Notes: generated by a model from the sequence alone, not told the origin. A DNA stretch of 64,000 bases from Nitrosomonas oligotropha (GCF_009833085.1 NZ_QRBZ01000011.1:1-64000), one strand, 5' to 3'; counted from the stretch's first letter, positions 5,741 through 30,509 are shown. Program-made: numbers and translations.

Positions 5741-6427
5741 TTATCGTGTTTTTCTGCGGTATGCCATAAAACCGAGCAACCCGAATCCGGCGAGCAACAT
5801 GCTGTAGATTTCGGGCTCGGGTACCGGTGATAGCAGACTGACATTATCCAGCGCAATGACTTCCATCACCGGTGTAAAGTGCTCGGCATTGATCCAAAGC
5901 GCGTTCAGGTTGGAAAGCACAGCGAGCAATTGCGCATCGGTGGCAAAAGCGCCGGAAAAAGTATCGGCAACCCGCCAAGTACCGGCCACGAGCGCGGCAT
6001 CGAAATGCGTCCAAGCGGCTGGCAAGCTGTTGGTGGCTTCATAAACCAGCGTCAGCCCGGCACCTTTTAAGACAATCTCGGCTTCATTGGCGTAACTTGT
6101 TCCCGCAACCACGTACCGGCTATCGAATTGAAGGTTGCCGCCAAAAGCAGCGCTTTGATCGCCGAGGAATTTGCCGGGAGCGCTAAAATATGTCCATTGC
6201 GAATCAGGATCGGCGAGCGTAATGGATCCTGCGGGTACGCCATCCGCACTATGCGTGGGCGTTAAACCGCCGGTGATGATCGACCAGCCAGAAGAACCGT
6301 CCGTTGTGAGTCCGCTCCAGCCGTCGGCATCGCTGTCGAAAGTGCTGGATACGAGCGAACTGGCGGCAATCGTGGAATAACTCAGAATAGTGAAGCAGCA
6401 TGCAACAGAAATGGCAGAGCGGATCAT
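5741..6427 (-). CDS. PEP-CTERM sorting domain protein
   Basis: A 228-residue exported protein with an N-terminal signal peptide (about residues 1-22, ending STIAAS). At its C-terminus is a PEP-CTERM tripartite signal: VPEPEIYSML, a hydrophobic helix (LAGFGLLGFMAY) and basic RRKTR. Such proteins are processed by exosortase and usually sent to the cell surface or extracellular matrix. The body is rich in Gly, Ser and Asp (DSDADGWSGL) and has no recognised enzymatic domain. A strong ribosome site (AAGGAG at 6435-6440, minus strand) fixes the start. PEPEIY differs from the PEPETY of the three other copies in the window. Confidence 0.88.
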   Translation of the reverse strand: MIRSAISVACCFTILSYSTIAASSLVSSTFDSDADGWSGLTTDGSSGWSIITGGLTPTHSADGVPAGSITLADPDSQWTYFSAPGKFLGDQSAAFGGNLQFDSRYVVAGTSYANEAEIVLKGAGLTLVYEATNSLPAAWTHFDAALVAGTWRVADTFSGAFATDAQLLAVLSNLNALWINAEHFTPVMEVIALDNVSLLSPVPEPEIYSMLLAGFGLLGFMAYRRKTR

Positions 6428-9342: not shown

Positions 9343-10610
9343 CTAATTTGCGCCGCCTTTGTCGGCAAATCGTTCCAAATATTTTTTGATAATGGTTCTG
9401 ATTTTAAGATCATCAACATGACGCAGCACAATCAGATTGATGACGCCATGCATTGCCAGCGCCAGCAGCAAGCCTTCAAAAATGCCGAGCCGGTAGACCA
9501 GCAACGCGCACACTATCGCTAGTAATAATGCATATTGTCCTTGATGCGCCACGTGCCATAATCCCAGGATCATTTTCCAGCCGGTAAAAATCATGATCAC
9601 GGCCAGGGAAAATTTGGGCATGTATTCGAGATACTGGGTGTTCAGTGCGAAGAATAAAACCACCAATCCGATCACTAATACCGAGAATTTAGTATAAGCG
9701 CCAGCGAGTTTGTTAGTCGTGCTTTTGGCCAGACCGTCCAGATTGGTCATGCCGCCAAAAAAACTGGCGCTCATGTTGGCGATCCAGATAGCCAGTAAAC
9801 TATTATTGGTATTGCATTTGCGCTGTAACGGGTCGATTTTCTGAATGGCGGCGTTACTCATGACTTGTTCAATGACATCAATCGTAGCTAGCATCGCGGC
9901 AAAACCGATGACATACAACCAAATCAATGGACTATCAAAGTGTGGCAGCGGTAGCGATAAAACAATCGGCACATCTTCGACATGCAGCATCGGCATAGCC
10001 ATTAGCTGTGCCAGCAATGCACCGGCAATCATCAAGAAAAAATACGGAATGGCCGGTTGAGTTGCCTGGAATTTTGCAAATAAATATAAGAACGCGGCAA
10101 ACCCCGCTGACGATATTAAAACCATCTGAATGCGCGCACCATTCCAGAATACTTCAGTGATCATGCTTTCCGGTATTTCATAAGTCATTGTGAGAAAGTT
10201 GAGCGCGATTTTCAAACCTACGCAGCCAGCAGTCCTTCCACCAGATATTCGGGCACAGCCAATAGAATGTATTTTTGTAGATTGAATTTCCAGATGACCG
10301 CTTGCATGAAGGCCGTCAGAAAAATAACAAACGCCATATTTTCCATACCAAAGCTTGTTACGCCCAGTGCAAGAACCGGCGCGAGCCCAGCAGCAACGCC
10401 GGGAGCTCCGATATAGTTTCCTGGCCTGATCCAGGCATTGATCCAACCGATGAAGCAGGCGCAAACGACAGTTGCTAATGCAACTTTGATGGGATAGTCA
10501 GACATCAACGCAATACCTGCGGATAAGGGAATTGCCATTGCGCCGGTAATGATCCCGGCTTGCAGATCGCGTGTAAGAAATTTGGCTTGGAATGCTGCGG
10601 AATTATGCAT
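9343..10610 (-). pseudogene. SulP-family anion transporter, one-base frameshift
   Basis: Two adjoining frames together make one SulP permease of about 420 residues. The N-terminal part (10218-10610) runs from MHNSAAFQAKFLTRDLQAG to EYLVEGLLAA and then stops. The remainder continues in another frame as VGLKIALNFL down to 9343. Inserting one G at about 10217-10219 would restore LLAAVGLKIAL, so a single base has been lost or mis-sequenced. About ten membrane segments are visible. The C-terminal STAS domain usual in SulP proteins is absent. SulP members carry sulfate or bicarbonate; the nearby DAB locus favours bicarbonate, but this is inference. Confidence 0.85.
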
Positions 10611-10851: not shown

Positions 10852-11085
10852 TTATTTGAGGCTTACTTCTTGAGGTTCGTCGTTATTATGCAATACATCC
10901 GCTTCGCTACTTGCTTGAATCTCGGATTCAACGCTTCCCGGCTCGATTACAGATACATCTCGCAGTGTTGAATCGCTGCCAGCCTGATCTTTATTATCAT
11001 CACTTTCTATGTTGTTCTCGTTTGTTTTATTCTCTTCATCGTTTTTAGAACTGAAAAGACTTGTCAACCAATCAGATAAACCCAT
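10852..11085 (-). CDS. Small acidic hypothetical protein
   Basis: The start at 11085 (MGLSDWLTSLFSSKND) has a good AGGAGA site eight bases upstream on the minus strand. The reading from 11142 adds 19 residues with no support. The 77-residue product has a short amphipathic start (GLSDWLTSLF) and then a highly acidic, Asn/Asp/Glu/Ser-rich and probably disordered tail. I do not recognise it. It lies between the carbonic anhydrase gene and the SulP gene, all on the same strand, so a link with carbon uptake is possible but unproven. Confidence 0.6.
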   Translation of the reverse strand: MGLSDWLTSLFSSKNDEENKTNENNIESDDNKDQAGSDSTLRDVSVIEPGSVESEIQASSEADVLHNNDEPQEVSLK

Positions 11086-11233
11086 AGCACTTCTCCTTTT
11101 GTTGGAACAGCGATAAATTGTAAATCTAAGGGATATATGCACATAACATTGATTTTTGTAATCTAAGCTATGACGAAAAAATAAGTAGTTATCTCCTATC
11201 TAAAATTGATCAAATTGCGGTAATACATAAAAG

Positions 11234-11386: not shown

Positions 11387-12436
11387 TTACCCAACCCTTT
11401 CAATGACCTCAAACTTCCTGGTATTTAAATCGGTACACCCAGACAGTATTTGCAAATGCGGCGCTAAATCCGGAACTTTATCCTTGATGATATTGAGTGC
11501 AAATTTACCGAGAAACGTTGCTTTTTCTTTCGATAAAAGATATTCAGGACCAGCTTCATCTCGATATACTCCGGAAGTCATCAGTACAACGCCATCCGGA
11601 TTAATTCGACCTTCATCAATATTGTTTTTCAGTAATTTTGCTGCAGTTTCAATCGCAACAGAAAGATTCGGATCAAAAGGACCAACGATAAACGCTGTAT
11701 TAATTACATGCAGCCAGTCAAATCCACGCCCAACGCCGATTACCCATTCTTTGTGTTCAGCTTCTTCGATGGGCCGATTGGTAGAGCGGATTTCAGCAAT
11801 ATGCCGGATATTTCCCCGCACCAGCGGCATCAAGTCCCGGATAACCCTTTCAGGCATCGTGGGGTAGAGTGAACGCAGCATTTCTTCAAGCTCGAGTTGC
11901 GATGATTCTTTCGCATTGGCTAAATCAACTGAGCGGCCGTCTTCTCCATGAAGAACCAGAGCATCCAAGTCGGTCTCAATGCCGCAAACGATAGGTACTA
12001 CCGCACCATTTTTGCCATAGACTGACTGAAACTGGGTTTTTAGCTTAACGGCTGCCGCTTTTGCAGCTTCCGTATCGTAATGGAATCCCCGGCAACCACG
12101 GTGAGTATCGCCGCGTGCAAAGTGATAGGTCACAAAAACCAAACAGTGCCTGCCACGGCTGATGGAATAGTCTACCCATTGATCAATCGCTGCTTGAAAG
12201 AATGGCCAGCCTAAATCAAAAATACCACCCAAGTTACGGAATGGTTGAATGATCCCAAGCGCAGTCTGTGTCATGACCGGTAGATGCAATCGGCCATCCA
12301 TACATTTTAGCGCGGCTATTTCGGTAGGATGCTCTCCGCGGTATCTGCGGCGTTCTGTGGCCAAATCCATGAAAGCTTGCGAATGTCTTGTATTTAAATC
12401 GAGTAAATAATCGATTCCAGTATTCGAATTGTTCAT
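11387..12436 (-). CDS. CsoSCA-like carbonic anhydrase
   Basis: About 349 residues. The ATG at 12434-12436 is preferred because an AGGAG lies just before it; a longer start at 12460 is possible. The sequence resembles the catalytic and C-terminal parts of the carboxysomal carbonic anhydrase CsoSCA. It contains RRRYRGEHPTEIAALKCMDGR with the Cys-x-Asp-x-Arg triad (C45, D47, R49), then YHFARGD (H105) and HRGCRGFHYD (C115) as the other probable zinc ligands. The N-terminal helical domain of CsoSCA is missing and no shell genes are nearby. It should interconvert CO2 and bicarbonate. As last gene of the DAB operon (46 bases after a NuoM-like gene) it probably serves carbon uptake or supply to RuBisCO. 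Confidence 0.75.
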   Translation of the reverse strand: MNNSNTGIDYLLDLNTRHSQAFMDLATERRRYRGEHPTEIAALKCMDGRLHLPVMTQTALGIIQPFRNLGGIFDLGWPFFQAAIDQWVDYSISRGRHCLVFVTYHFARGDTHRGCRGFHYDTEAAKAAAVKLKTQFQSVYGKNGAVVPIVCGIETDLDALVLHGEDGRSVDLANAKESSQLELEEMLRSLYPTMPERVIRDLMPLVRGNIRHIAEIRSTNRPIEEAEHKEWVIGVGRGFDWLHVINTAFIVGPFDPNLSVAIETAAKLLKNNIDEGRINPDGVVLMTSGVYRDEAGPEYLLSKEKATFLGKFALNIIKDKVPDLAPHLQILSGCTDLNTRKFEVIERVG

Positions 12437-12482
12437 CATTCTCCTAAAAAAATTTAGCATATTATGAATTATGAGTTTATAA

Positions 12483-13988
12483 CTAGTGGGTTGTTAAGGT
12501 TAATCGAGAGAGCCATTCTTCTGAAGCGATTTGATTTATATTAAGAATGTAATCAGGATAAAAACCTAGCGCTAATATTAGCAGTGCGGGAATGAGTAGT
12601 AAAATCATTTCGCGTGATTGCAGATCAACCACTTGCTTTACATCTTGGTGGGTGATCGGCCCCAAGAAAGTCCGGCGTATATAGGAGAGCATATAAGCGG
12701 CGCCCAGTATCGCACCGGATAGTGCAGCAACGCCTAAAACGGAATGCGCACTGATGGCGCCCATGATCATCAGCAATTCGGCCGGGAAACCGCTGGTGCC
12801 GGGTACACCGATACTGGCTAATGTAAATAAAAAGAAAAAAGCCGTCAGTTTTGGCATAACTTTAGCAAGCCCGCCCAAATGAATGGCTTCGGTGCTGCCG
12901 AGCCGATGTTGAATAAAACCGGCAATAAGCATCAGTGAGCTGGCCACCAAAGTAAAATTCAACAGTTGAAAGATTGCACCCTGGAATCCTTGTATGTTGA
13001 GCGACGCGATCCCCACCATAACTAATCCGACGTGACTGACACTGGCATAGGCAAGCAAGCGGCGTAAATTTGTTTGCTGCAGCGCGATCAAAGCACCATA
13101 GATGAGCGTAAAAGCGCCTACCACGCTCAAAATCCAGCTATATTCCATCGCGGCAGTGGGCGCTAACGGCATCGCAAAACGTAAAATGCCATAAATACCT
13201 AATTTTAGCCCGACGAGAATGGCGACAATATGCGTCGGTCCTTCGGTGGCCACTGTGGGTAACCAGGTGTGCAGCGGAACCAGCGGGGATTTGACAGCGA
13301 AACCGAAGAGTAATAATAGAAAGACAAGTTCCTGCAACTCATGCGGTAATGTCGTATTCAATAAAACAGGCAGACTGAAAGACAAATCATTGGGTATTTG
13401 CCCTCCCGATTGAATCGCATGGTTTGTCGCCAATACGATAATCGCAAGTAACAAAGTGACACCGCCGGAGAGCATAAACAATGTGTATTTCATGGCTGCG
13501 CTACGCCGTTGCGAACCTATACCCCATAAGCCGATCAAGAAAAAGAACGGCGGTAATGTCAGTTCCCAAAAGAGGAAAAACAGCACCGTATCGAGCGCGC
13601 AAAATATGCCGATACTGACGCCTTCGAGCGCGAGTAATAACGAGAAATGAAAGCGCGAGGAATGGGAAATCGTATTCCATGAGGCCAGCATCGTGATCAA
13701 AGTCAGCAATGCCGTCATCGGGAGAAATAATACCGAGATACCATCAACGCCAATCAAATATTCAATATTTAAAATTGAAATCCAAGAGTAGCGTTCAACT
13801 AACTGAAACTCACCTTTACTAGCGTCAAATAAAATGAGAACACAGATCGTCAGAAGTAGCGATAATACAGCGACAAAAAAGGCGACTTGCTTCGAGAAAT
13901 CGATATTGCGTATTGATCCAGCTAATATAGCCCCCAATAAGGGGACAATCATCGTAAGGCTGAGCAGCGGGAAATCAGCTTCAATCAT
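12483..13988 (-). CDS. NuoM-like proton-conducting membrane subunit
   Basis: A 501-residue polytopic protein (about 14 helices) of the complex I/Mrp antiporter family. Conserved ion-path residues are visible: Glu in FLFWELTLPPFF (TM5), Lys in GFAVKSPLVPLHTWLP (TM7), Lys in LVGLKLGIYGI (TM8), His in YASVSHVGLV and Glu in GFPAELLMI (TM12). The gene starts 1 base after the stop of the preceding NuoM-like gene. It is thus an intact antiporter-type subunit in an operon with dabA and dabB, not part of a complete nuo operon. It probably moves protons or sodium to drive DabA. Confidence 0.88.
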   Translation of the reverse strand: MIEADFPLLSLTMIVPLLGAILAGSIRNIDFSKQVAFFVAVLSLLLTICVLILFDASKGEFQLVERYSWISILNIEYLIGVDGISVLFLPMTALLTLITMLASWNTISHSSRFHFSLLLALEGVSIGIFCALDTVLFFLFWELTLPPFFFLIGLWGIGSQRRSAAMKYTLFMLSGGVTLLLAIIVLATNHAIQSGGQIPNDLSFSLPVLLNTTLPHELQELVFLLLLFGFAVKSPLVPLHTWLPTVATEGPTHIVAILVGLKLGIYGILRFAMPLAPTAAMEYSWILSVVGAFTLIYGALIALQQTNLRRLLAYASVSHVGLVMVGIASLNIQGFQGAIFQLLNFTLVASSLMLIAGFIQHRLGSTEAIHLGGLAKVMPKLTAFFFLFTLASIGVPGTSGFPAELLMIMGAISAHSVLGVAALSGAILGAAYMLSYIRRTFLGPITHQDVKQVVDLQSREMILLLIPALLILALGFYPDYILNINQIASEEWLSRLTLTTH

Positions 13989-13989
13989 T

Positions 13990-15579
13990 CTAATTATCCT
14001 TTGTAATAATATACTGTGTAGTCAATAACTTGTCAGTATTATGCGCATCGATGTTGTTATGCGAGTTGCTGCCAGTAGTGTGAATGTTCTGATCGATGAT
14101 ATCCAGCCAGGGCGATGAATTAAGTCCGGTAGCAATGAGCGAACCGCAGATTGCAATAGTTATAATCCATTCGTTCCTGGGAGATGGCGGAGAGCTGGCG
14201 TGATGAATATTCACGAAAGGTCCTTGGAAGCGCTTTGGCGCAGCAATGAATATTTGCTGGAAAGCACGTAACAGCAAACCGACCGTCAAAACGTTACCGA
14301 ATAGAATTGCGATGGCGATGAGCCATCCCTGACCTTGGATAGTGCCATCGATTAATAAGTGGATGCCATCGAAACCGGGAGTCCCCGGCATTCCCATCGT
14401 ACTCAAGGCGCAGATCACAAACAAAACGGCAATGGCTGAATTGGTGTCAAACATACCGCCCAGGCGTGGAATGAATGCTGTATGCGTGCGTTTGTATATC
14501 ATGCCGAGACTCAGCAATATGCCAGCTGTCGCCATACCGAACGATATCGCCAGAACGATACCGCCTTCCATGCCGTGTGTACTGAAATCAAATAAGCCGA
14601 TGGTAATTAGGCCCGTTTGGCTGATGATGGCAAAAGCGATTAACCGGCGGAAGTTGATTTGCATGAACGCCAGCAATGCACCGTAAAAAATTCCGATCAA
14701 ACCCAGCATCGTGACGAACCATGCCCACTGTTCGGCAACTTCAGGCAACAGGGGAATCAAATAGCGTACGATGGCATAAATACCGAGTTTCAGGCTGACT
14801 AGAAAAATGCCGACACTCGCGATGGTTCCATGTTCAGCGACGACCGGCAACCATGCATGAAATGGAAACAATGGCATGCGAATGGCAAAACCGAATAGCA
14901 ATAAGAAAAAAATCAGCGTCGGATATTCATGCGTGACGTTGCTTTCCTTCAGAACTAGCCAATCGAACGATAAAACATCGGTGGTTAACATGATGCCGAA
15001 TCCAAGCATCACGAAACCGGCTAAAGCCATCAATAATCCGCTGCTAAAGTGCTGCAGCACTAATGCGACAACCCAGCGCCGGTTCTGACTGGATCCCGAT
15101 CGTAATGTCATCAAGACAATAGGGATCATTTCAAGAAAACACCATAACCAGAACTGCATGGCATTCAGTGCCGCAAAAGCGCCGATGAGAATGGCTTCAT
15201 AACCCAATAGTGAAGCAATATGAGTCTTGTCTGACACATGCCGCGCCGTGAGGGTATAAATGAGTGTCAGCAGTGCCAGAGTGGTTGTCAGCAGTATGAA
15301 TAAAATATTAGTGCCATCGACGCCGACAGTATAGGTTACGCCTAAACCCTGATAGCGCTCATAAAGTTGTATACCCGCCAGATCCGCATTAAAAATGGAT
15401 AACAGATATACGCTCAGCAAGAATGTCGACACCGTTCCGGCAAAACCGAGACGCAAGGCGGCAACGGGCGAAGATGTCAAGATTACCGCGACCATCGCCG
15501 CCAAAGGTATGAGCGTCAGTACTGATAAAATTGGAAATGAAACTGTTTCCGACCAATTAGTAATATGTGTAATATCCAT
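13990..15579 (-). CDS. Divergent NuoM-like membrane subunit
   Basis: A 529-residue protein with about 14 helices. The ATG at 15579 has a GAGG site and is preferred over a TTG at 15603. Compared with the two other NuoM-like proteins here, key ionisable positions have changed. The TM7 Lys is Arg (GFAIRMPLFPFHAWLP), the SVSH His is Gln (AIISQTGLITIG) and the TM12 Glu is lost (GFDGIHLL). The TM5 Glu (FLEMIPIV) and TM8 Lys (SLKLGIYAIVRY) remain. It may be a structural or one-way channel subunit. The C-terminus has an extra Asn/His-rich tail. DabB ends 7 bases upstream. Confidence 0.85.
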   Translation of the reverse strand: MDITHITNWSETVSFPILSVLTLIPLAAMVAVILTSSPVAALRLGFAGTVSTFLLSVYLLSIFNADLAGIQLYERYQGLGVTYTVGVDGTNILFILLTTTLALLTLIYTLTARHVSDKTHIASLLGYEAILIGAFAALNAMQFWLWCFLEMIPIVLMTLRSGSSQNRRWVVALVLQHFSSGLLMALAGFVMLGFGIMLTTDVLSFDWLVLKESNVTHEYPTLIFFLLLFGFAIRMPLFPFHAWLPVVAEHGTIASVGIFLVSLKLGIYAIVRYLIPLLPEVAEQWAWFVTMLGLIGIFYGALLAFMQINFRRLIAFAIISQTGLITIGLFDFSTHGMEGGIVLAISFGMATAGILLSLGMIYKRTHTAFIPRLGGMFDTNSAIAVLFVICALSTMGMPGTPGFDGIHLLIDGTIQGQGWLIAIAILFGNVLTVGLLLRAFQQIFIAAPKRFQGPFVNIHHASSPPSPRNEWIITIAICGSLIATGLNSSPWLDIIDQNIHTTGSNSHNNIDAHNTDKLLTTQYIITKDN

Positions 15580-15586
15580 CGAAACC

Positions 15587-17155
15587 TCAAATTGAAGCAG
15601 CAATCATTAAGACAATGAATACAAATAGGACCAAATAGCGCGGTTTGAGAATAAGTTGTTCAAAAGTATTCGCAATTTGTCCAAGTTTCCTGCCAATATC
15701 GACTGTATCCATACCAATACCACGCAAAACCAGGCGATCTTCAAACCAGCTCATGATATTTGCTATCCATTCAAAGAATTTACCGACTATGCCGCTGCCA
15801 CGGACAAATTCAATGTGTATGCCATCGCGGATATCTTTATCCATGTTTTTTTCCAATTGCGTTAGCGATGAAATGGTGTAGTTTGAAGAAACGGGAGCAC
15901 CCATGGCCCGATCGATGATGTTTTTATCGAATCGATCCAAGTCATGCCCCAAACCGTAAATAGGCCGGACCAATGTCCTGTCCGCAATTGGGTCAAGCCA
16001 GAAACGCTGCAATGAGGCGATATACAACCAGCGCTTATCGGCGATTGCGGATGCTACCGGCTTCATCGGATTGCCGTAGACATAGCGTAATAAGGAAGGT
16101 GCTGTTAATACCTGATAATTTCTCACCATGGCATGGGCGCAGAGGTGCCAGCTTGCCAATTCCCACAATCCCAGCCCGCACTCCAGGAACATGAGACCGA
16201 GTTGCCCCGAAATGGCAAAGCATAATGAGCTTTTGGTGTCTGTTTGTGTTAATCCGACAATAATGCTATACACAGCCGTGAAAAATCCAATGACTACCAG
16301 CACGGCCATGGTTAGCGGTGCGAGCTCAATAATCGGACGAAGCAAGATCACTAAGAAAATGCCTGCGTGTATCATGACAGCGCCATAAAACACTGCACTT
16401 GAAGGCGTGGGCCCTTCCATTGCTCTTGCTAACCAGGGTGTGAATGGGAGTTGCGCCGATTTGGCAATGGCGGCAACCACAAAACATAAGCTGATTACGG
16501 TCGCGGTAGGCGTAGGGAGGTTTGTAGCGATTTCATTCAGACTGAGCCAATTGGTTGTGCCGGCATAATAAAAGGAAAGCGCAATCCCCAGGATAAAGCC
16601 GGCGTCACCGATCCGGTTGGTGACGAATACCCGGGTGGCGTTGATGGCGGCTGTGGGGCGATCGTAGGCGAAAGATATCAATAAATAGGAGCATAACCCG
16701 GCGATCTCCCAGCCGATAAAAGTACTGATCGCGTTACCCGATAAAATCAGCAGTAACATTCCCGACGAGAACAGGCATAAAACGAAAAAGAACCGGTGAA
16801 AGCCAGACTCCGCGTGAATGTAATTGATTGAAAAGCGGGCTATGATGACCAAAATAATTGAAAATAGGGCGGCTACAATGACACTAAAACCGGTAGTGAT
16901 GAAGTTGAGTTCAACCACAAAATTTCCGCTATCGAGCCATTTTCCTAGCGTAATGTAGTTCGGGTTTATTCCATACAAATCAGTGCCGAATAAGCCTAGC
17001 GCGATCAAACATGACAATGTTATGGCATTTTTAGCCACATTGGCGCTGATGGGTTCATCTTTCTTTCCATTGATACGGTTGAATAAAATACCGAAACCGA
17101 TGATTGCCGCAGCAATGAGTGGCAGTAGCGGTATTAAGAAGACCAGATAATCCAT
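15587..17155 (-). CDS. dabB: DabB-type NuoL-like membrane subunit
   Basis: A 522-residue NuoL-family protein, shorter than complex I NuoL (about 610) and without its long lateral helix. Ion-path residues are present: E150 (FIGWEIAGLCSYLL), D184 (NRIGDAGF), K232 (AIAKSAQLPF) and H263 (VMIHAGIF). DabB is the membrane partner of DabA in the energy-coupled CO2-hydrating DAC/DAB system described in Halothiobacillus neapolitanus. The gene starts one base after dabA ends, which makes the pairing firm. The C-terminal 150 residues are more hydrophilic and may contact DabA. Confidence 0.9.
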   Translation of the reverse strand: MDYLVFLIPLLPLIAAAIIGFGILFNRINGKKDEPISANVAKNAITLSCLIALGLFGTDLYGINPNYITLGKWLDSGNFVVELNFITTGFSVIVAALFSIILVIIARFSINYIHAESGFHRFFFVLCLFSSGMLLLILSGNAISTFIGWEIAGLCSYLLISFAYDRPTAAINATRVFVTNRIGDAGFILGIALSFYYAGTTNWLSLNEIATNLPTPTATVISLCFVVAAIAKSAQLPFTPWLARAMEGPTPSSAVFYGAVMIHAGIFLVILLRPIIELAPLTMAVLVVIGFFTAVYSIIVGLTQTDTKSSLCFAISGQLGLMFLECGLGLWELASWHLCAHAMVRNYQVLTAPSLLRYVYGNPMKPVASAIADKRWLYIASLQRFWLDPIADRTLVRPIYGLGHDLDRFDKNIIDRAMGAPVSSNYTISSLTQLEKNMDKDIRDGIHIEFVRGSGIVGKFFEWIANIMSWFEDRLVLRGIGMDTVDIGRKLGQIANTFEQLILKPRYLVLFVFIVLMIAASI

Positions 17156-17156
17156 G

Positions 17157-20100
17157 TCAAGCTCCTGTCACATGAGGTTGCTTAATTAAAACGGGGGGCA
17201 ATGGCACATTGATATCCTGATAATATGCAACAGATGATTCATACACAGGCACGTGCTTTTTCTCTGGCTGCCAAGGAACAAATCCAACGCCGCGCTCAAA
17301 TACTGAAATTTCAGCCGTATCGGGATCGATTGCACTAAGCAAAATCCAACCGCCACCCACCAGCTCACGAATACTGGCCTGACGTTCATAAATCTGTCCC
17401 AGTATTTCGGTTTTGGCTTCAACCAGCACCTGTAACCGTAACGGTTCATGAATTTCGATCATCTGCTTGGTTAATCCGGTGCGTAAATCGCTGCTCGTGC
17501 CTTCGAGTACACCGAACATGCCGGTAATGTTATGTGTGACTTTGGAACCGGAACCGAAATAATCGTTATTGACCGTGGAAAAGTAATATTCCAGGTTAAT
17601 ACCGGCGCCCACCGGGCCGACCGCTAGCAATAGGTTTTCCAGCAACTTACCGTCGGCATCCTGCGTGGGATCGTATGAAATGAGAAAAACACGCCGGTCC
17701 AGGAACGTTCCTTGCGATACGGATCGCCGTCCGACAATGGCCGCGGCGATCGTGGCATGATTGAATTCCGGAAATGCTTGAGAAAAATCATTGGCCCGTA
17801 AAACCACGTGCTCCTTGCCAACTTCTGGAGAGCGGGGATTATTGGCCGAAACAAAGCGGCGGCAGCGTTCGTGTGCCGTAGCTTTACTCGCTTTGATCAG
17901 ATCATTCCTGAATGCTTCAAAAGCGGGTAATGCGCTTGGTGGAATATCCTCAAGATCGTACCAATAGTATTCGTCGCTACAGGTGTCGTGTTCGGCGCCG
18001 ACAAACCAGGTGTCATCGGGAATGTGAATGCCGCGTTCGGCGAGTAATTTTCTAACTTCCGGACGATTCGCCATGGCGGCAAAAAGCCGCGCATTCGGTC
18101 CACCGCGCTTGCCGCTACAGGCGCCGCAGTTGTAACCAAACTCATGCGGATTATTGAGGTTGGTGGATCCATGGCCGGTTAAGCAAACAATTGGGGCAAA
18201 ACCGTACGATAAGCCGGTTGTGCGCATGAAAACCGTTAGCCGGTCGGCTTGCTCCGTATCGGTAAAGCCTAACCGGGGCTGATCCGGGGTTGCGGGTGTG
18301 TCCGAAGCGGGCGCCTTGAACATCAGCTCGGTCGGGACTTTCTTTTCAATGCTTTGCCGTATTGAAGTATTCAGCGCTAAAAAATACTTAGGCAAAAATA
18401 CCCGGCCTAATAAACCGGTAAACACAACCGGCGCCAATGCATCAATGACTGCATGCGAGAAAATAAGGCTGCGCCGCAGCGACTGATTCATCAAATAAGC
18501 CAGCTTTTTATAGAAGCGATACCCTTTGAAATGTTCTTGCAGTACCGGCTCCGCGCCTTTTCGCGGCACTTCATTGACATCATTGGCCGGCCGCACGACC
18601 ACAGGGCATTGCATCTTAGTTTCAATGTCGTCAATCCCTTTATAATTCATGGGTACACCGAAAAATCCTGCTGCGCCGATCGTCTCGATAGCGGGATTGA
18701 TTTCTTCCAGTTGACGGCGCAGGCTTTCCTCGCGGTCATCCATGCAGGTGACGATTTGCGCTTGCGCCCGCTGGGTACGTTTGGCCCAGCGTCCGCGGCC
18801 GGTATTGGCGCGCAAAGTTTGAAAAAAATCTTCCCGGTAATGATATTCGTAAGCATATAGCCATATTTTGCTGCGCTCGGGTGCGCTAAATTCGTCGAGA
18901 ACCTTTAGCAATTGCAGCAGATCGCTTTTTTGCATGCCATCGATATCCGTAGCGGTGAGTCCCAGATGCTGGGACAAGCGGAAGAGCCGCCAGCCGCTGT
19001 TAAAAGCCGCATGCTCAAAATCATTTTTTACCAACGGGCTGAACTGCCAAGTCCAGGCTAAATCAGCCAATGATTGCCATTCTTCCCGTCTTTCGCGTTC
19101 GGAACCGGCGCGCATGATCAAATCCTTGGCAAGATTGGTCAGATATTCCGGTAAATGACCATCATACAATTGCTTCCTGACCATGAACTCGGATAAATTT
19201 CTGCGAAAATAATAGCCGATCGTTCCCAGCTTGGCCTCAATCTTCCAGGTGTCTTTACACGCCTGATTGAGCCATAATCGATCCAATGTCAGACGGATAG
19301 CCAGATAATCCGCCAAATGCAATCTGGCATCATTTTCGGTATGGTAATCTGGATTATGCTGACGCCAATTGATCATTCCCGACCAGCCCGGCAGCTCAAG
19401 CGCCAGCTGTTGTATATAGCTTTCCCATTTTTCTTGCGGAATTTCCAGGTTGGTTAACTGCAGAATAATGCAGTCGACCGGATCTTCCGGTGTTTCATCG
19501 ACAATACTTTGCCAGTCGGGCAGATCATGCAGAAACGGGTTGACATCGAAATGGGCTGTCGACCGCCAGGCGGCATACAAGCCTAATTTGCTGCGCTCGG
19601 GTAATTGCCAGGCAGCGACGCCTTCATCGAGCGCCGAGGCGCAGATCCGGATGATCTGCGGCCGGATGGAATACAGAATGTCAACACCGCTTAATGCCAG
19701 AACAAAGCTGCGCAATGTAATTTTGTCACCGATCTGTGCCAGCATGTCATTGAGCTCGGCTTCGGCATCCATTCTCATTTTCTGGTGCACTGGAATGCCT
19801 TCACCGTCGGCCAGTGTTACTGTGATTTTTTCCAGCCACTCTTTTGCCTGTTCCTCCGAGAGATCCAGCATGTTTTCCGGATGCAAGTCGGTGAGCTCAA
19901 TGCCGAGTTTGCTCAGAATGCTTTCCCAGAGATGTTTAACGACGACACTGGGATCGGAAATGCAACTGAGCATCCGTGCGCGGGCTTCTTTGGAGACATC
20001 CGGTTGAATGGTATGCAACACATTCAGCTCTTCGATCTGCCAGTTCAATTGACTGATCGACAGAGTCGGCAGCTCGTGCAGTAAGGCAACTTGATAAATA

Positions 20101-20429
20101 TCCCTGCGCCGGATTGTCAGATCGTTGGCATGAAATACAACCTGCTCGGACTGCAGGCTTTTGCTATGCTCGAACGCAGCGGAAAGATCGGCATCGGTAA
20201 TCCGTCCTTGCTGATATAGTTCGCGGTTTTTGGAATCCGGCAGATAACCATAAACACCGGTCAATTTTTCATACTCTGCCAAGCCTTCTTCAAACGGGAG
20301 GTGTTGAAAGCCATGAATCGTGTTGTGATGCACAAATTTATGCAGCGGACGTTGCCCTGGAAGAATGTGATCCAGATGATTAATGGTTTCAATTACATGG
20401 CTACGTAAATCATGAGATTCGTTTGTCAT
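17157..20429 (-). CDS. dabA: DabA, CO2-hydrating subunit (DUF2309), extra-long
   Basis: A 1090-residue cytoplasmic protein of the DUF2309 family. DabA is a beta-carbonic-anhydrase-like zinc protein that hydrates CO2 when energised by DabB. Predicted zinc and active-site residues are C562 and D564 (VTCMDDREES), then H753 (TGHGSTNLNN) and C768 (FGYNCGACSG). The His-to-Cys spacing of 15 equals that in the characterised enzyme. The protein is about 260 residues longer than the H. neapolitanus form (about 830), mainly before the zinc site. AGGATATTG precedes the start. The NuoM-like gene ends 9 bases upstream and dabB follows 1 base downstream. Confidence 0.93.
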   Translation of the reverse strand: MTNESHDLRSHVIETINHLDHILPGQRPLHKFVHHNTIHGFQHLPFEEGLAEYEKLTGVYGYLPDSKNRELYQQGRITDADLSAAFEHSKSLQSEQVVFHANDLTIRRRDIYQVALLHELPTLSISQLNWQIEELNVLHTIQPDVSKEARARMLSCISDPSVVVKHLWESILSKLGIELTDLHPENMLDLSEEQAKEWLEKITVTLADGEGIPVHQKMRMDAEAELNDMLAQIGDKITLRSFVLALSGVDILYSIRPQIIRICASALDEGVAAWQLPERSKLGLYAAWRSTAHFDVNPFLHDLPDWQSIVDETPEDPVDCIILQLTNLEIPQEKWESYIQQLALELPGWSGMINWRQHNPDYHTENDARLHLADYLAIRLTLDRLWLNQACKDTWKIEAKLGTIGYYFRRNLSEFMVRKQLYDGHLPEYLTNLAKDLIMRAGSERERREEWQSLADLAWTWQFSPLVKNDFEHAAFNSGWRLFRLSQHLGLTATDIDGMQKSDLLQLLKVLDEFSAPERSKIWLYAYEYHYREDFFQTLRANTGRGRWAKRTQRAQAQIVTCMDDREESLRRQLEEINPAIETIGAAGFFGVPMNYKGIDDIETKMQCPVVVRPANDVNEVPRKGAEPVLQEHFKGYRFYKKLAYLMNQSLRRSLIFSHAVIDALAPVVFTGLLGRVFLPKYFLALNTSIRQSIEKKVPTELMFKAPASDTPATPDQPRLGFTDTEQADRLTVFMRTTGLSYGFAPIVCLTGHGSTNLNNPHEFGYNCGACSGKRGGPNARLFAAMANRPEVRKLLAERGIHIPDDTWFVGAEHDTCSDEYYWYDLEDIPPSALPAFEAFRNDLIKASKATAHERCRRFVSANNPRSPEVGKEHVVLRANDFSQAFPEFNHATIAAAIVGRRSVSQGTFLDRRVFLISYDPTQDADGKLLENLLLAVGPVGAGINLEYYFSTVNNDYFGSGSKVTHNITGMFGVLEGTSSDLRTGLTKQMIEIHEPLRLQVLVEAKTEILGQIYERQASIRELVGGGWILLSAIDPDTAEISVFERGVGFVPWQPEKKHVPVYESSVAYYQDINVPLPPVLIKQPHVTGA

Positions 20430-20438
20430 ATCAATATC

Positions 20439-21911
20439 CTATTGAATACTTTGCATGATGGTGCCATTCATTTGGTTCATGGTCGCCATTGAAAGGTCAA
20501 TCAAAGGCGCTGGCCACAAACCGAACATGACGATTAATACAACCAAGAAGCCGGCCGCAATGAGCTCGTATAGCTTTAAATCCTCGATATTACGCATCTG
20601 AGGTTTTACGGGACCGGTGAACAACATGCCGATGGTGCGCATGGCATAGGCTGTTCCGATCATGATGCTGACCCCGAGCAGGATCATCAGATTGCCCCAT
20701 TGCTGGAAGCCACCCACAATGGCATGCAGCTCGGCAATGAAGCCGACGGTGCCCGGCAATCCCATGGCCGCAAATAATGTGATCGTCATGAACAAAGCGA
20801 AGCGCGGCATGACTCTTACCAAGGAGCTGTAGTCCAGAATATTGCGCGTATGAGTGCGTTCGTACAGCAAACCGACCAGCAAGAACATTGCTCCCGCCAC
20901 CAGGCCATGCGCGGTCATCTGTAAAACAGCGCCAATCAGCCCCGTTTTATTCATGGTGGCAATATCGAGCAGAATGATCCCCATATGACTGACCGAAGAA
21001 TATGCCACCATCGCTTTCATATCCGTTTGCCGCCACGCCAGAACACCGCCATAAATCATTCCGATCAACGCCAGGGCTATTAAGAGTGTTTGCAGCATTT
21101 GCGTGGCTTCCGGCAGCATGACAATCACTCTTATCATGCCGTAAGCGCCCATTTTGAGAAGAATGCCGGATAGCAGGATACTGACCGGACTCGGCGCTTC
21201 AACGTGTGCCAGCGGCAACCAGCCGTGTAATGGGAAAATGGGCATCTTTACGCCAAAGCCGATTAGAAAGCCGATTAAAACCCAGATTTGCTCGTCCCTC
21301 GGCATGCTCTGCGCAGCAACTGTCATCGCAGACATCAGAGTGCCGCCATGCGGCGGCATGTATTGACTGATCGCCAGCAAGCTGATCAGCATGAAAATTG
21401 AGCCGCCCATTGTATAGAGCACAAAATTTAAACTGGCGATGTGGCGGCGTTTGCCTCCCCAGCGATCGATCAGCAGAAACAGCGGCGCTAAGGTCAACTC
21501 CCAGAAAATATAGAATAATGACCAATCTTGCGACAGGAAGACACCCAGCATGCCAAGTTCCAGCAGCAAGATACTGACGTAGTAGCTTTTGATATTACGC
21601 GCAATATTGAAAGAGGCGAGTAGCGCAATTACAGTGAGCAATGCGGCCAATACCACCATGGGCAGTGATAATCCATCGACGCCTAATGCAAGTGCAGTAT
21701 TAAGTTTAGGATTGAAAACAAAATACTCATAGAACTGTATTTGGCCATCCGATCGATCGTAATTAAGAACCAGCCAGAAACTCAAGAGAAACGCCAGGAG
21801 CGCAGTTAGATTAACGGTGAAACGGATTTGGTTTGTGTTCTTACTCGGAATTAACGCAAGTATCAGAATACCTAATACTGGTGTTAGAAGTAATGTACTG
21901 AGTATTCCCAT
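20439..21911 (-). CDS. NuoM-like subunit, first gene of the DAB operon
   Basis: A 490-residue polytopic protein of the NuoM/MrpD type. Ion-path residues are intact: Glu in YIFWELTLAPLF (TM5), Lys in GFGVKMPIFPLHGWLP (TM7), Lys in GILLKMGAYGM (TM8), His in YSSVSHMGIIL and Glu in GFIAELHAIV (TM12). It is the most 5' gene of the five membrane/DabA genes and is followed by dabA after 9 bases. AAGGATAAA precedes the ATG. It probably forms part of the ion-translocating arm that powers DabA. On sequence alone it could belong to an Mrp antiporter. Confidence 0.88.
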   Translation of the reverse strand: MGILSTLLLTPVLGILILALIPSKNTNQIRFTVNLTALLAFLLSFWLVLNYDRSDGQIQFYEYFVFNPKLNTALALGVDGLSLPMVVLAALLTVIALLASFNIARNIKSYYVSILLLELGMLGVFLSQDWSLFYIFWELTLAPLFLLIDRWGGKRRHIASLNFVLYTMGGSIFMLISLLAISQYMPPHGGTLMSAMTVAAQSMPRDEQIWVLIGFLIGFGVKMPIFPLHGWLPLAHVEAPSPVSILLSGILLKMGAYGMIRVIVMLPEATQMLQTLLIALALIGMIYGGVLAWRQTDMKAMVAYSSVSHMGIILLDIATMNKTGLIGAVLQMTAHGLVAGAMFLLVGLLYERTHTRNILDYSSLVRVMPRFALFMTITLFAAMGLPGTVGFIAELHAIVGGFQQWGNLMILLGVSIMIGTAYAMRTIGMLFTGPVKPQMRNIEDLKLYELIAAGFLVVLIVMFGLWPAPLIDLSMATMNQMNGTIMQSIQ

Positions 21912-26706: not shown

Positions 26707-27327
26707 ATGAGTAAACGATTTTATCTGCACAATACAATGATTGGGGCGATGCTGCTGATGGCCGGAGGGTCTGCGCACGCTGGACTCTCGTTTGTGGTAA
26801 CCGATACAGCCACTCGAACCGAAGCATTTAACATCGCAGGATTCGCTACACTACCCATTGGCTCAGCTGTTAGCCTTGGTCATCTCGATTACACCGGGCC
26901 AGAGGCGCAAACAGTTACTTATACTTATCTTGGTCAGGAATCCGGTTTTGTTGACAAATTTTATAACACGTTGAGCGGAGCCAAACTGCTGGAATCCAAT
27001 GCGGTTGGAACTTCAATCAGCTCGGTGGTGAGCACGGCCGGGCCGCTGAGCTTCAAATTTGAGGGAGACACCAGTAAATTTGCCATTAATGGTGGTCACT
27101 GGGATAAAGGCACATCGATCGGATTGATTGGCACAAACATGCTGATCGGATCTGCAACCTATGCCTATGTACTTGGCTACAATGACAGTGCGGGAACTAA
27201 GTATCTGGGTGACTGGGACGATTTCGTGATCGGTGTAAGCGCTGTTCCTGAACCGGAGACTTATGCAATGTTGCTGGTCGGACTTGGTTTGGTGGGATTC
27301 TCATTAAGCAAGCAGAGACACAGATAA
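26707..27327 (+). CDS. PEP-CTERM sorting domain protein
   Basis: A 206-residue exported protein: a signal peptide (about 1-25, ending GSAHA), a Gly/Ser/Thr-rich beta-type body and the C-terminal PEP-CTERM signal AVPEPETYAMLLVGLGLVGF plus basic SKQRHR. An exosortase would cleave and sort it to the surface. No enzymatic domain is seen. A gap of 267 bases precedes it (26440-26706) and a LuxR-type regulator gene follows. It shares its C-terminal DNA wording with the copies at 28777 and 29781, which suggests paralogy. Confidence 0.9.
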   Translation: MSKRFYLHNTMIGAMLLMAGGSAHAGLSFVVTDTATRTEAFNIAGFATLPIGSAVSLGHLDYTGPEAQTVTYTYLGQESGFVDKFYNTLSGAKLLESNAVGTSISSVVSTAGPLSFKFEGDTSKFAINGGHWDKGTSIGLIGTNMLIGSATYAYVLGYNDSAGTKYLGDWDDFVIGVSAVPEPETYAMLLVGLGLVGFSLSKQRHR

Positions 27328-28776: not shown

Positions 28777-29469
28777 ATGAAAAAAAAATTAGCAATTATA
28801 ACGGCCTCGATACTGAGTATTGTTGCAGCACCTTTATTTGCTAGTGTCGGCGACACAGCAACTTATAAATTCGACTTGCCCGCCACATCGTCATTTAGCT
28901 CAGGCTATCCTACTGTTGCAGAACTTAAAATTACAGAAACAGCGGCTGGTGTCGTCACATTTGAATTAACTCCGAATTGGGCATCTCCGGGTTTCTCGCA
29001 TAATGATTCGACAGTGAATAGACTCGATTTTGTCTACCAAGGACCGGCGCTTACAAGTGCAAACTTTTCACAACCGGCGATCCATGGAGCTGACATCGAT
29101 AAGTTCACTTACCACAGTGATATTACGATGGACAGTAGCTACAAATCAGATGATCAGCATATCGTGATCGATTGGTTTGCACACAATAAATCCAACCGGT
29201 TTGACGACACACCTTATACCAACAGTATCTGGACAATATCGGGTACGGGTGTAGATATTACGGATTTTACCGGTACAAAGGCTACAACAACGTCGGGTAA
29301 ACCAGAACCTATTTTTGGCATTATATCGGTAGATCCTTATTCGTTGAGAGATCCTCATCCAACACCTTCAAACTGGGTTTCAGCAGTTCCGGAGCCGGAA
29401 ACCTATGCGATGCTGCTGATCGGATTGGGATTGATTGGATTTACACTGCGTCACCAAAGAAGTTTGTGA
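28777..29469 (+). CDS. PEP-CTERM sorting domain protein
   Basis: A 230-residue exported protein with a short basic start (MKKKLAIITASIL), signal peptide to about residue 23 (LFAS), and C-terminal signal AVPEPETYAMLLIGLGLIGF followed by RHQRS. The body contains Ser/Thr/Asp-rich beta-type sequence with no known domain. AGGAG precedes the start. A strong terminator follows at 29537. The gene at 29781 shares the same C-terminal phrase and a nearly identical terminator stem, suggesting an older duplication of the 3' ends. Confidence 0.9.
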   Translation: MKKKLAIITASILSIVAAPLFASVGDTATYKFDLPATSSFSSGYPTVAELKITETAAGVVTFELTPNWASPGFSHNDSTVNRLDFVYQGPALTSANFSQPAIHGADIDKFTYHSDITMDSSYKSDDQHIVIDWFAHNKSNRFDDTPYTNSIWTISGTGVDITDFTGTKATTTSGKPEPIFGIISVDPYSLRDPHPTPSNWVSAVPEPETYAMLLIGLGLIGFTLRHQRSL

Positions 29470-29780: not shown

Positions 29781-30509
29781 ATGCGTGTTTTGTCTGTTGC
29801 ATCACTCTTAACCTTGCTAAGCGCCCCAGTAGTTGCGGCGCCTGTAGTCTTCGACTTTGCCAACTTGAAGTATAGTGGCGGCATTAATACCGGTTTTCTG
29901 CCAACGGATGGAATTGCCTGCAGTGGCGGCGATCTATGCAGTTCGAACATTGCATCGTCACTCAGCGGTGATTTAAGTTTCACCAATGGCGGACTTACCG
30001 TGCACGCCCAAGGCTCATTCAATGGTGGCGCTTTTGGTTCCAGAGCAGCTGTTGTCCAAGATCATGAAAATGGCTACAACGGAAAACTTTCTGGAAAAGA
30101 TGCAATCGGCGCCGGTTTAGGTGTTTATCACAAGAAGGATGATACCAGTGACGATAACATCACTGAAAAAGAAGCAATCTGGCTGCATTTCGACCAGAAT
30201 GTTTCATTGTCTTCAGTCGGTTTTCGTGCGGAAGGGCATAATACGACGGGCTGGATCGCTAATGCGACTTTCCAATACAGTTTCGACAATTCAACCTGGA
30301 CTACAGGATTACTACCAAAAGACGTAGGCCAATTTGCTTTGAGTCACACCGGACATGACTTTTACTTCAGATTCGGTGGCGGTAGCAAAGCAGATCAATT
30401 TTATATTAGCTCAATGACGGTATCGGCAGTTCCAGAACCGGAAACTTATGCCATGCTGCTGATTGGATTGGGTTTGGTAGGTTTCTCATTACGCAATAAG
30501 AAAGGATAA
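29781..30509 (+). CDS. PEP-CTERM sorting domain protein
   Basis: A 242-residue exported protein: signal peptide about 1-20 (LLSAPVVAAPVVF), a Gly/Ser-rich body with FDFANLKYSGG and FHFDQNVSLSSVGFRA-like beta strands, and C-terminal AVPEPETYAMLLIGLGLVGF with RNKKG. The body (WLHFDQNVSLSSVGFRAEGHN) recalls proteins that form surface or matrix layers, but no domain can be named safely. A tATAGGAG site precedes the ATG. It has two cysteines near each other (IACSGGDLCSSN), possibly a disulfide. Confidence 0.9.
   Translation: MRVLSVASLLTLLSAPVVAAPVVFDFANLKYSGGINTGFLPTDGIACSGGDLCSSNIASSLSGDLSFTNGGLTVHAQGSFNGGAFGSRAAVVQDHENGYNGKLSGKDAIGAGLGVYHKKDDTSDDNITEKEAIWLHFDQNVSLSSVGFRAEGHNTTGWIANATFQYSFDNSTWTTGLLPKDVGQFALSHTGHDFYFRFGGGSKADQFYISSMTVSAVPEPETYAMLLIGLGLVGFSLRNKKG

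Follow-up and report, generated by a model that had tools for sequence, protein, structure and literature searches.

What purpose do three additional antiporter-like proteins and a carbonic anhydrase (CA) serve beside a DabA-DabB pair, and do all of these proteins belong to one machine? The question is raised by a locus of Nitrosomonas oligotropha contained in the window, i.e. the whole stretch of 64,000 nucleotides that was analyzed (NZ_QRBZ01000011.1:1-64000). On its minus strand, from 21911 to 11387, six ORFs, all co-oriented, encode M1, DabA, DabB, M2, M3, and CA; a transporter gene lies further downstream:

20439..21911, minus strand: M1, NuoM-like antiporter subunit, 490 aa, first gene (Pfam, residue set)
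17157..20429, minus strand: DabA, long form, 1090 aa (Pfam PF10070, Zn-site residues)
15587..17155, minus strand: DabB, NuoL-like, 522 aa (Pfam, hydropathy, ion-pair residues)
13990..15579, minus strand: M2, degenerate NuoM-like protein (residue pattern, DabB fusion in loci L151/L152)
12483..13988, minus strand: M3, NuoM-like, 501 aa (residue pattern, tree)
11387..12460, minus strand: CsoSCA2-type (epsilon/beta) CA, 357 aa (CsoSCA_cat, invariant residues)
9346..10610, minus strand: SulP/BicA-like transporter, frameshifted (N part 10610-10221, C part 10194-9346)

Gene content and genomic context

Pfam places DabA in PF10070 (E=1.3e-240); four other proteins contain Proton_antipo_M (E=1e-36 to 1e-67), and DabB is the only one that also has Proton_antipo_N, in agreement with the six co-oriented genes and the names assigned to them in a preliminary description of this DNA. 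The match of CA to CsoSCA_cat (PF20686) is weak (22.9 bits at a cut-off of 21.5) and is supported by matches to CsoSCA structures in the PDB. The intergenic distances given previously (9, 1, 7, 1, and 46 nucleotides) are correct with ATG starts at 15579 for M2 and 12436 for CA; if the longest ORFs are taken instead, the first 17 nt of M2 lie within DabB and the distance between M3 and CA shrinks to 22. Residue numbers of M2 run from the alternative TTG start at 15603. Purifying selection acts on each of the six genes (dN/dS 0.02-0.09 vs two close relatives), and order and strand recur in loci down to 42% DabA identity; the arrangement is therefore far beyond chance.

The closest DabA relatives stem from Nitrosomonas isolates (92-97% identity; N. 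oligotropha Nm75, 93%). The genome contains a single DabA, a separate NuoL, M, and N gene set on contig C24, and two RuBisCO large-subunit genes; according to our reading of the translations, CbbQ/CbbO-like genes come after one of them and CbbS/CbbX-like genes after the other. Redox, core NDH, or CupA subunits are not encoded in the operon, nor redox or CupA subunits in its flanks, and the window operon has none of the Mrp small subunits (B, C, E-G type) beside M1 and M3.

The SulP/BicA-like gene, located ~780 bp downstream of the operon, is a loosely associated neighbor. In the window it is split by a frameshift near 10220, while it forms a single frame in 10 relatives, which identifies the frameshift as a single-genome mutation or an assembly error. 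A small acidic ORF lies between the CA and SulP genes (10852-11142, minus strand). The window also encodes four proteins with a PEP-CTERM-like C-terminal sorting signal (PEPE..YAMLL or similar):

5741-6427, minus strand: PEP-CTERM-like protein
26707-27327, plus strand: PEP-CTERM-like protein
28777-29469, plus strand: PEP-CTERM-like protein
29781-30509, plus strand: PEP-CTERM-like protein

Conservation and dispersal of a five-gene unit

The exact order M1-DabA-DabB-M2-M3 on one strand is found in 63 of the 79 loci with a long DabA, and most of the others are truncated at a contig end or interrupted by frame errors. The hosts comprise Nitrosomonas, Nitrosospira, Nitrosovibrio, Nitrotoga, Methylobacter and other methanotrophs, as well as Crenothrix, Thiodiazotropha, Thiolinea, Rhodocyclaceae, and Magnetococcales. 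Apart from SulP in some loci, the five-gene core has no widely shared extra neighbors. Because of the contig ends, we relied on a presence/absence profile across the class instead of a simple neighbor count, based on 369 evenly drawn genomes: each of M1, M2, and M3 occurs in 17 of these, which are essentially the genomes with this DabA. The mismatches are contig-end cases, with an edge inside DabB in genomes G111 and G379 and a contig that starts inside M1 in G293 and inside M2 in G275.

In a few genomes the genes are dispersed. The operon is broken up in G128 and G259, where the gene after DabA encodes DabB and M2 as one protein of ~1050 aa, a fusion seen in one genus (L151/L152), and where M1 and M3 each occur singly, either on another contig or at a distance of 10 kb. 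That M1 and M3 might be dispensable in these two genomes, as their absence beside DabA suggested, was rejected since both are present elsewhere in the same genomes. In G134, DabA is separate from M1-DabB-M2-M3; G389 has M1-DabA on one contig and M2-M3 on another, with no DabB seen beside either. M1-DabA-DabB-M2-M3 is a real conserved unit. Since scattered genomes keep all parts, its function appears to be joint beyond shared transcription, and the DabB-M2 fusion argues for contact between these two proteins. Order, co-occurrence, retention after dispersal, and fusion thus bear out the earlier proposal of an expanded DAB system whose antiporter-like subunits are functionally tied to DabAB.

M2 differs from M1 and M3

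M1 keeps the NuoM pump set (E138, K222, K253, E394) and additionally has H309 and H335; M3 likewise keeps the set (E142, K233, K262, E404). In M2, by contrast, an invariant arginine (Arg242) replaces the TM7 lysine, the TM12 acid is substituted by Ile414 in the window and by a hydrophobic or small residue across the M2 family, and the TM5 glutamate (glutamine in some) is displaced by two residues. A reading of the MAFFT alignment according to which M2 would be devoid of any TM5 acid was rejected, as the Glu or Gln is found two residues further on. The three proteins form separate clades (SH-aLRT 98-100), with M2 and M3 as sisters (99). With the TM12 acid and the TM7 lysine missing from M2, three equal pump subunits are unsupported: Of the "three extra" equivalent ion-translocating subunits postulated before, only M1 and M3 keep the residue set.

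DabA and DabB in comparison to DAB2

DAB2 from Halothiobacillus neapolitanus (PDB 9rd0; PMC13144422) shares with the present system the C-D-R, H, C zinc site, a NuoL-like DabB, and the finger helix region, but consists of two subunits instead of the products of five genes. The DabA zinc ligands C562, H753, and C768 and the Asp-Arg dyad D564-R566 are invariant in 40 homologues. At the position of DAB2 Leu658, which is strictly conserved in 150 DabA2 homologues (PMC13144422), DabA contains His891, and histidine is found there in all 40 homologues; Glu567 occupies the position of Ser356. The DAB2 finger residue Glu444 aligns with Asp663, a position that holds Asp in 16, Asn in 5, and non-acidic residues in the others of the 40 homologues, in a helix alignment that may be off by at least one turn. 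As the finger glutamate, which is essential in DAB2, is not kept, the known proton path may not apply.

DabB has TM1-11 as in NuoL, followed by amphipathic helices and one last TM. DAB2 DabB has 15 TMs (PMC13144422), whereas hydropathy predicts no hydrophobic segment at ~360-500 of the present DabB, where TM12-14 are located in DAB2; the AF2 model shows helices and loops at low confidence in this region. E150, R181, D184, and K232 constitute a complete NuoL ion-pair set, and E150, which corresponds to Ile151 in DAB2, is invariant in 41 DabB sequences. NuoL was the best match in a fold search with the DabB model, and NdhF chains were also among the matches. The AF2 model of DabA has low confidence around the zinc site, and a fold search with it returned noise and no match. 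Overall, the general DAB features are present (PF10070 DabA with C/H/C ligands and Asp-Arg dyad, adjacent NuoL-like DabB), whereas the features of the DAB2 type, that is Leu658, Ser356, Glu444, Ile151, and DabB TM12-14 around the finger, are absent.

In the DabA tree, the family lies inside a larger clade whose tested members all have histidine at the Leu658 position, except for the early-branching L122 with leucine. A second DabA type, present in some Nitrosomonas, also belongs to this clade. In Nitrosomonas mobilis, a second, shorter DabA-DabB pair directly follows the five-gene set (L062:18760-23235), and its DabA has the histidine, too. L005 and L024 (G001:C2) contain tandem copies of a further long DabA type, in which the finger helix is followed by a large insert. 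In L204 (G085:C1:73330-90074), SulP lies upstream of a DabA, and downstream come MbhD/MbhE-, MnhB-, and NuoK-like proteins as well as three proteins with Proton_antipo_M; here DabA is joined to an Mrp/Mbh-like arm, an arrangement that differs from the five-gene system.

The carbonic anhydrase

Residues C53-D55-R57, H113, and C123 of CA are invariant in 21 homologues. The enzyme is a CsoSCA2 and not a carboxysomal CsoSCA: CsoSCA2, for which N. oligotropha serves as an example in its 2022 description, is reported there to be devoid of the RuBisCO-binding N-terminus (PMC9164163). The present CA likewise belongs to the CsoSCA family, has a short N-terminus, and occurs outside carboxysomes; a linkage of CsoSCA2 to a DAB operon is not mentioned in the accessible part of the paper. 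The assignment fits the absence of BMC domains from the genome, as a BMC domain search yielded no shell genes and hence no carboxysome; a carboxysome link of CA was rejected on this ground. A search of the genome for the CsoSCA and Pro_CA types of CA yielded no other enzyme of these two kinds.

The placement of CA was scored in the 56 loci with enough sequence past M3. In 13 of these, from Nitrosomonadaceae and closely related MAGs, CA comes after M3 in the same orientation; 6 others carry it in the opposite orientation (Nitrosospira NpAV, Nitrosovibrio, Thiodiazotropha-type clam symbionts), and the remaining 37 lack it. Consequently, CA as a core subunit was rejected and it is no standing part of the operon, as had been assumed; the six-gene order to be sought in DabA neighborhoods proved to hold for the five core genes but not for CA. 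In L065, a tandem pair of CsoSCA2 genes follows M3 (17800-20230). Given the patchy distribution and a CsoSCA2 type that has no RuBisCO-binding N-terminus (PMC9164163), CA is an add-on and perhaps the general cytosolic CA. As neither BMC genes nor another CsoSCA or Pro_CA-type CA were found, it may simply serve the cytosol of a cell whose RuBisCO is not housed in carboxysomes. This weakens the earlier concern that a free cytosolic enzyme would short-circuit bicarbonate accumulation, and the tethering to RuBisCO considered in that context is unlikely for an enzyme without the corresponding N-terminus.

Proposed mechanism and alternatives

We consider it probable that the five proteins assemble into a single complex that hydrates CO2 and is driven by the PMF, with M1 and M3 as ion channels and M2 as an adaptor. 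Such a membrane complex would be a vectorial carbonic anhydrase in the manner of DAB2: external CO2 would be hydrated at the DabA zinc site, HCO3- would be retained in the cytosol, and an inward flow of ions, assumed to be H+, would drive the process. Its architecture would be closer to the membrane arm of complex I than to DAB2, with DabA carried by DabB, with M2 as a duplicate of M3 that lost its pump residues and adjoins DabB, and with M1 and M3 as intact channels whose ion flow would reach DabB via the conserved NuoL-type ion pairs, so that more than one ion might be used per HCO3- formed. The downstream CsoSCA2 would be a soluble CA gained in Nitrosomonadaceae and not a subunit. We infer the physical complex, its direction, coupling ion, and ratio from the observed gene content, order, co-inheritance, retention after dispersal, fusion, and residues. 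A higher ion:bicarbonate ratio is plausible; its general form, a higher ratio with more subunits, was proposed in a 2017 study (PMC5700660). More tentatively, and with somewhat less than even confidence, the system may represent a separate class of vectorial carbonic anhydrase, a complex-I-like CO2 pump whose single catalytic unit would be driven by a chain of antiporter modules (M1, M3) at more than one ion per bicarbonate, the connection being made by a dead antiporter (M2) in place of the missing DabB TM12-14.

It is also conceivable, albeit rather unlikely, that bicarbonate is made by a core of DabA, DabB, and M2 alone, and that M1 and M3 constitute a cation/H+ antiporter of their own, which would provide or relieve the ion gradient or the cytosolic pH and would be co-transcribed for convenience. 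M1 and M3 could then serve the same physiology outside the complex, and indeed only M2 has a fusion, G128 and G259 keep DabA and DabB-M2 together with M1 and M3 elsewhere, and both proteins have complete NuoM-type residue sets. Against such a division speak the almost invariant operon order, the restriction of the M1 and M3 clades to genomes with this DabA or a cut contig, and the lack of Mrp small subunits in the window operon. Three functionless NuoM copies hitchhiking with an ordinary DabAB are scarcely credible: Minimal DABs do need two genes only (PMC13144422), but the low dN/dS of all genes, their retention after dispersal, and the joint occurrence of M1-M3 across many families already contradict this reading.

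The direction of the process can be judged energetically. By our own estimate, the hydration of ~1 mM CO2 to ~1 mM HCO3- at pH 7.5 releases only ~6.6 kJ/mol, which is too little for exporting several ions against a normal membrane potential and thus favors uptake. This estimate, together with the one-way, PMF-driven operation of the related DAB2 (PMC13144422), makes it improbable that the complex is a reverse machine or valve in which CO2 hydration or dehydration drives ion export for energy conservation or pH control, even though the genes occur in methanotrophs, which release CO2, DabB retains the NuoL glutamate of the closing ion pair, and ion export was proposed for exergonic reactions in 2017 (PMC5700660). 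As methanotrophs carry the five genes, the role of the putative uptake complex need not be autotrophic carbon uptake.

Relation to known systems and implications

Cyanobacterial NDH-1MS also combines CO2 hydration with antiporter subunits of the NuoL and NuoM types. The DabB model matches its NdhF chains, but CupA, redox, and core NDH genes are missing from the present operon. The membrane arm of respiratory complex I (NuoL/M/N) has residue patterns like those of M1, M3, and DabB and provides the best DabB fold match; again, the operon has no redox subunits, and the genome's own NuoL/M/N genes lie apart. The ybcC/nuoL clade C described with COGNAT in 2017 likewise has dabA upstream of a nuoL homologue, extra NuoM genes, and SulP nearby, and that study shares the hypothesis that more membrane subunits translocate more ions, yet it assumes ion export, and its accessible part does not distinguish three kinds of NuoM or resolve the fusion of DabB with M2, the degeneration of M2, or CA (PMC5700660). 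Because both the placement of NuoM next to ybcC/dabA and a higher ion number per turnover were in print there, what is new here is the definition of a set of five subunits that are inherited together, the fused DabB-M2, the loss of pump residues in M2, and the residue changes in DabA and DabB; in the literature searched, which excludes most subscription journals, we found no prior description of the five-gene set.

DabB Glu150, DabA His891, the pump Lys and Glu residues of M1 and M3, and the DabB-M2 fusion offer sites for mutational tests. If the five proteins form one complex, DAB2 with two subunits, the present system with five, and complex I would constitute a natural series that could test how antiporter modules are coupled to non-redox chemistry and whether added modules raise the ion:product ratio, and the complex would define the bicarbonate supply in carboxysome-free ammonia oxidizers and methanotrophs.
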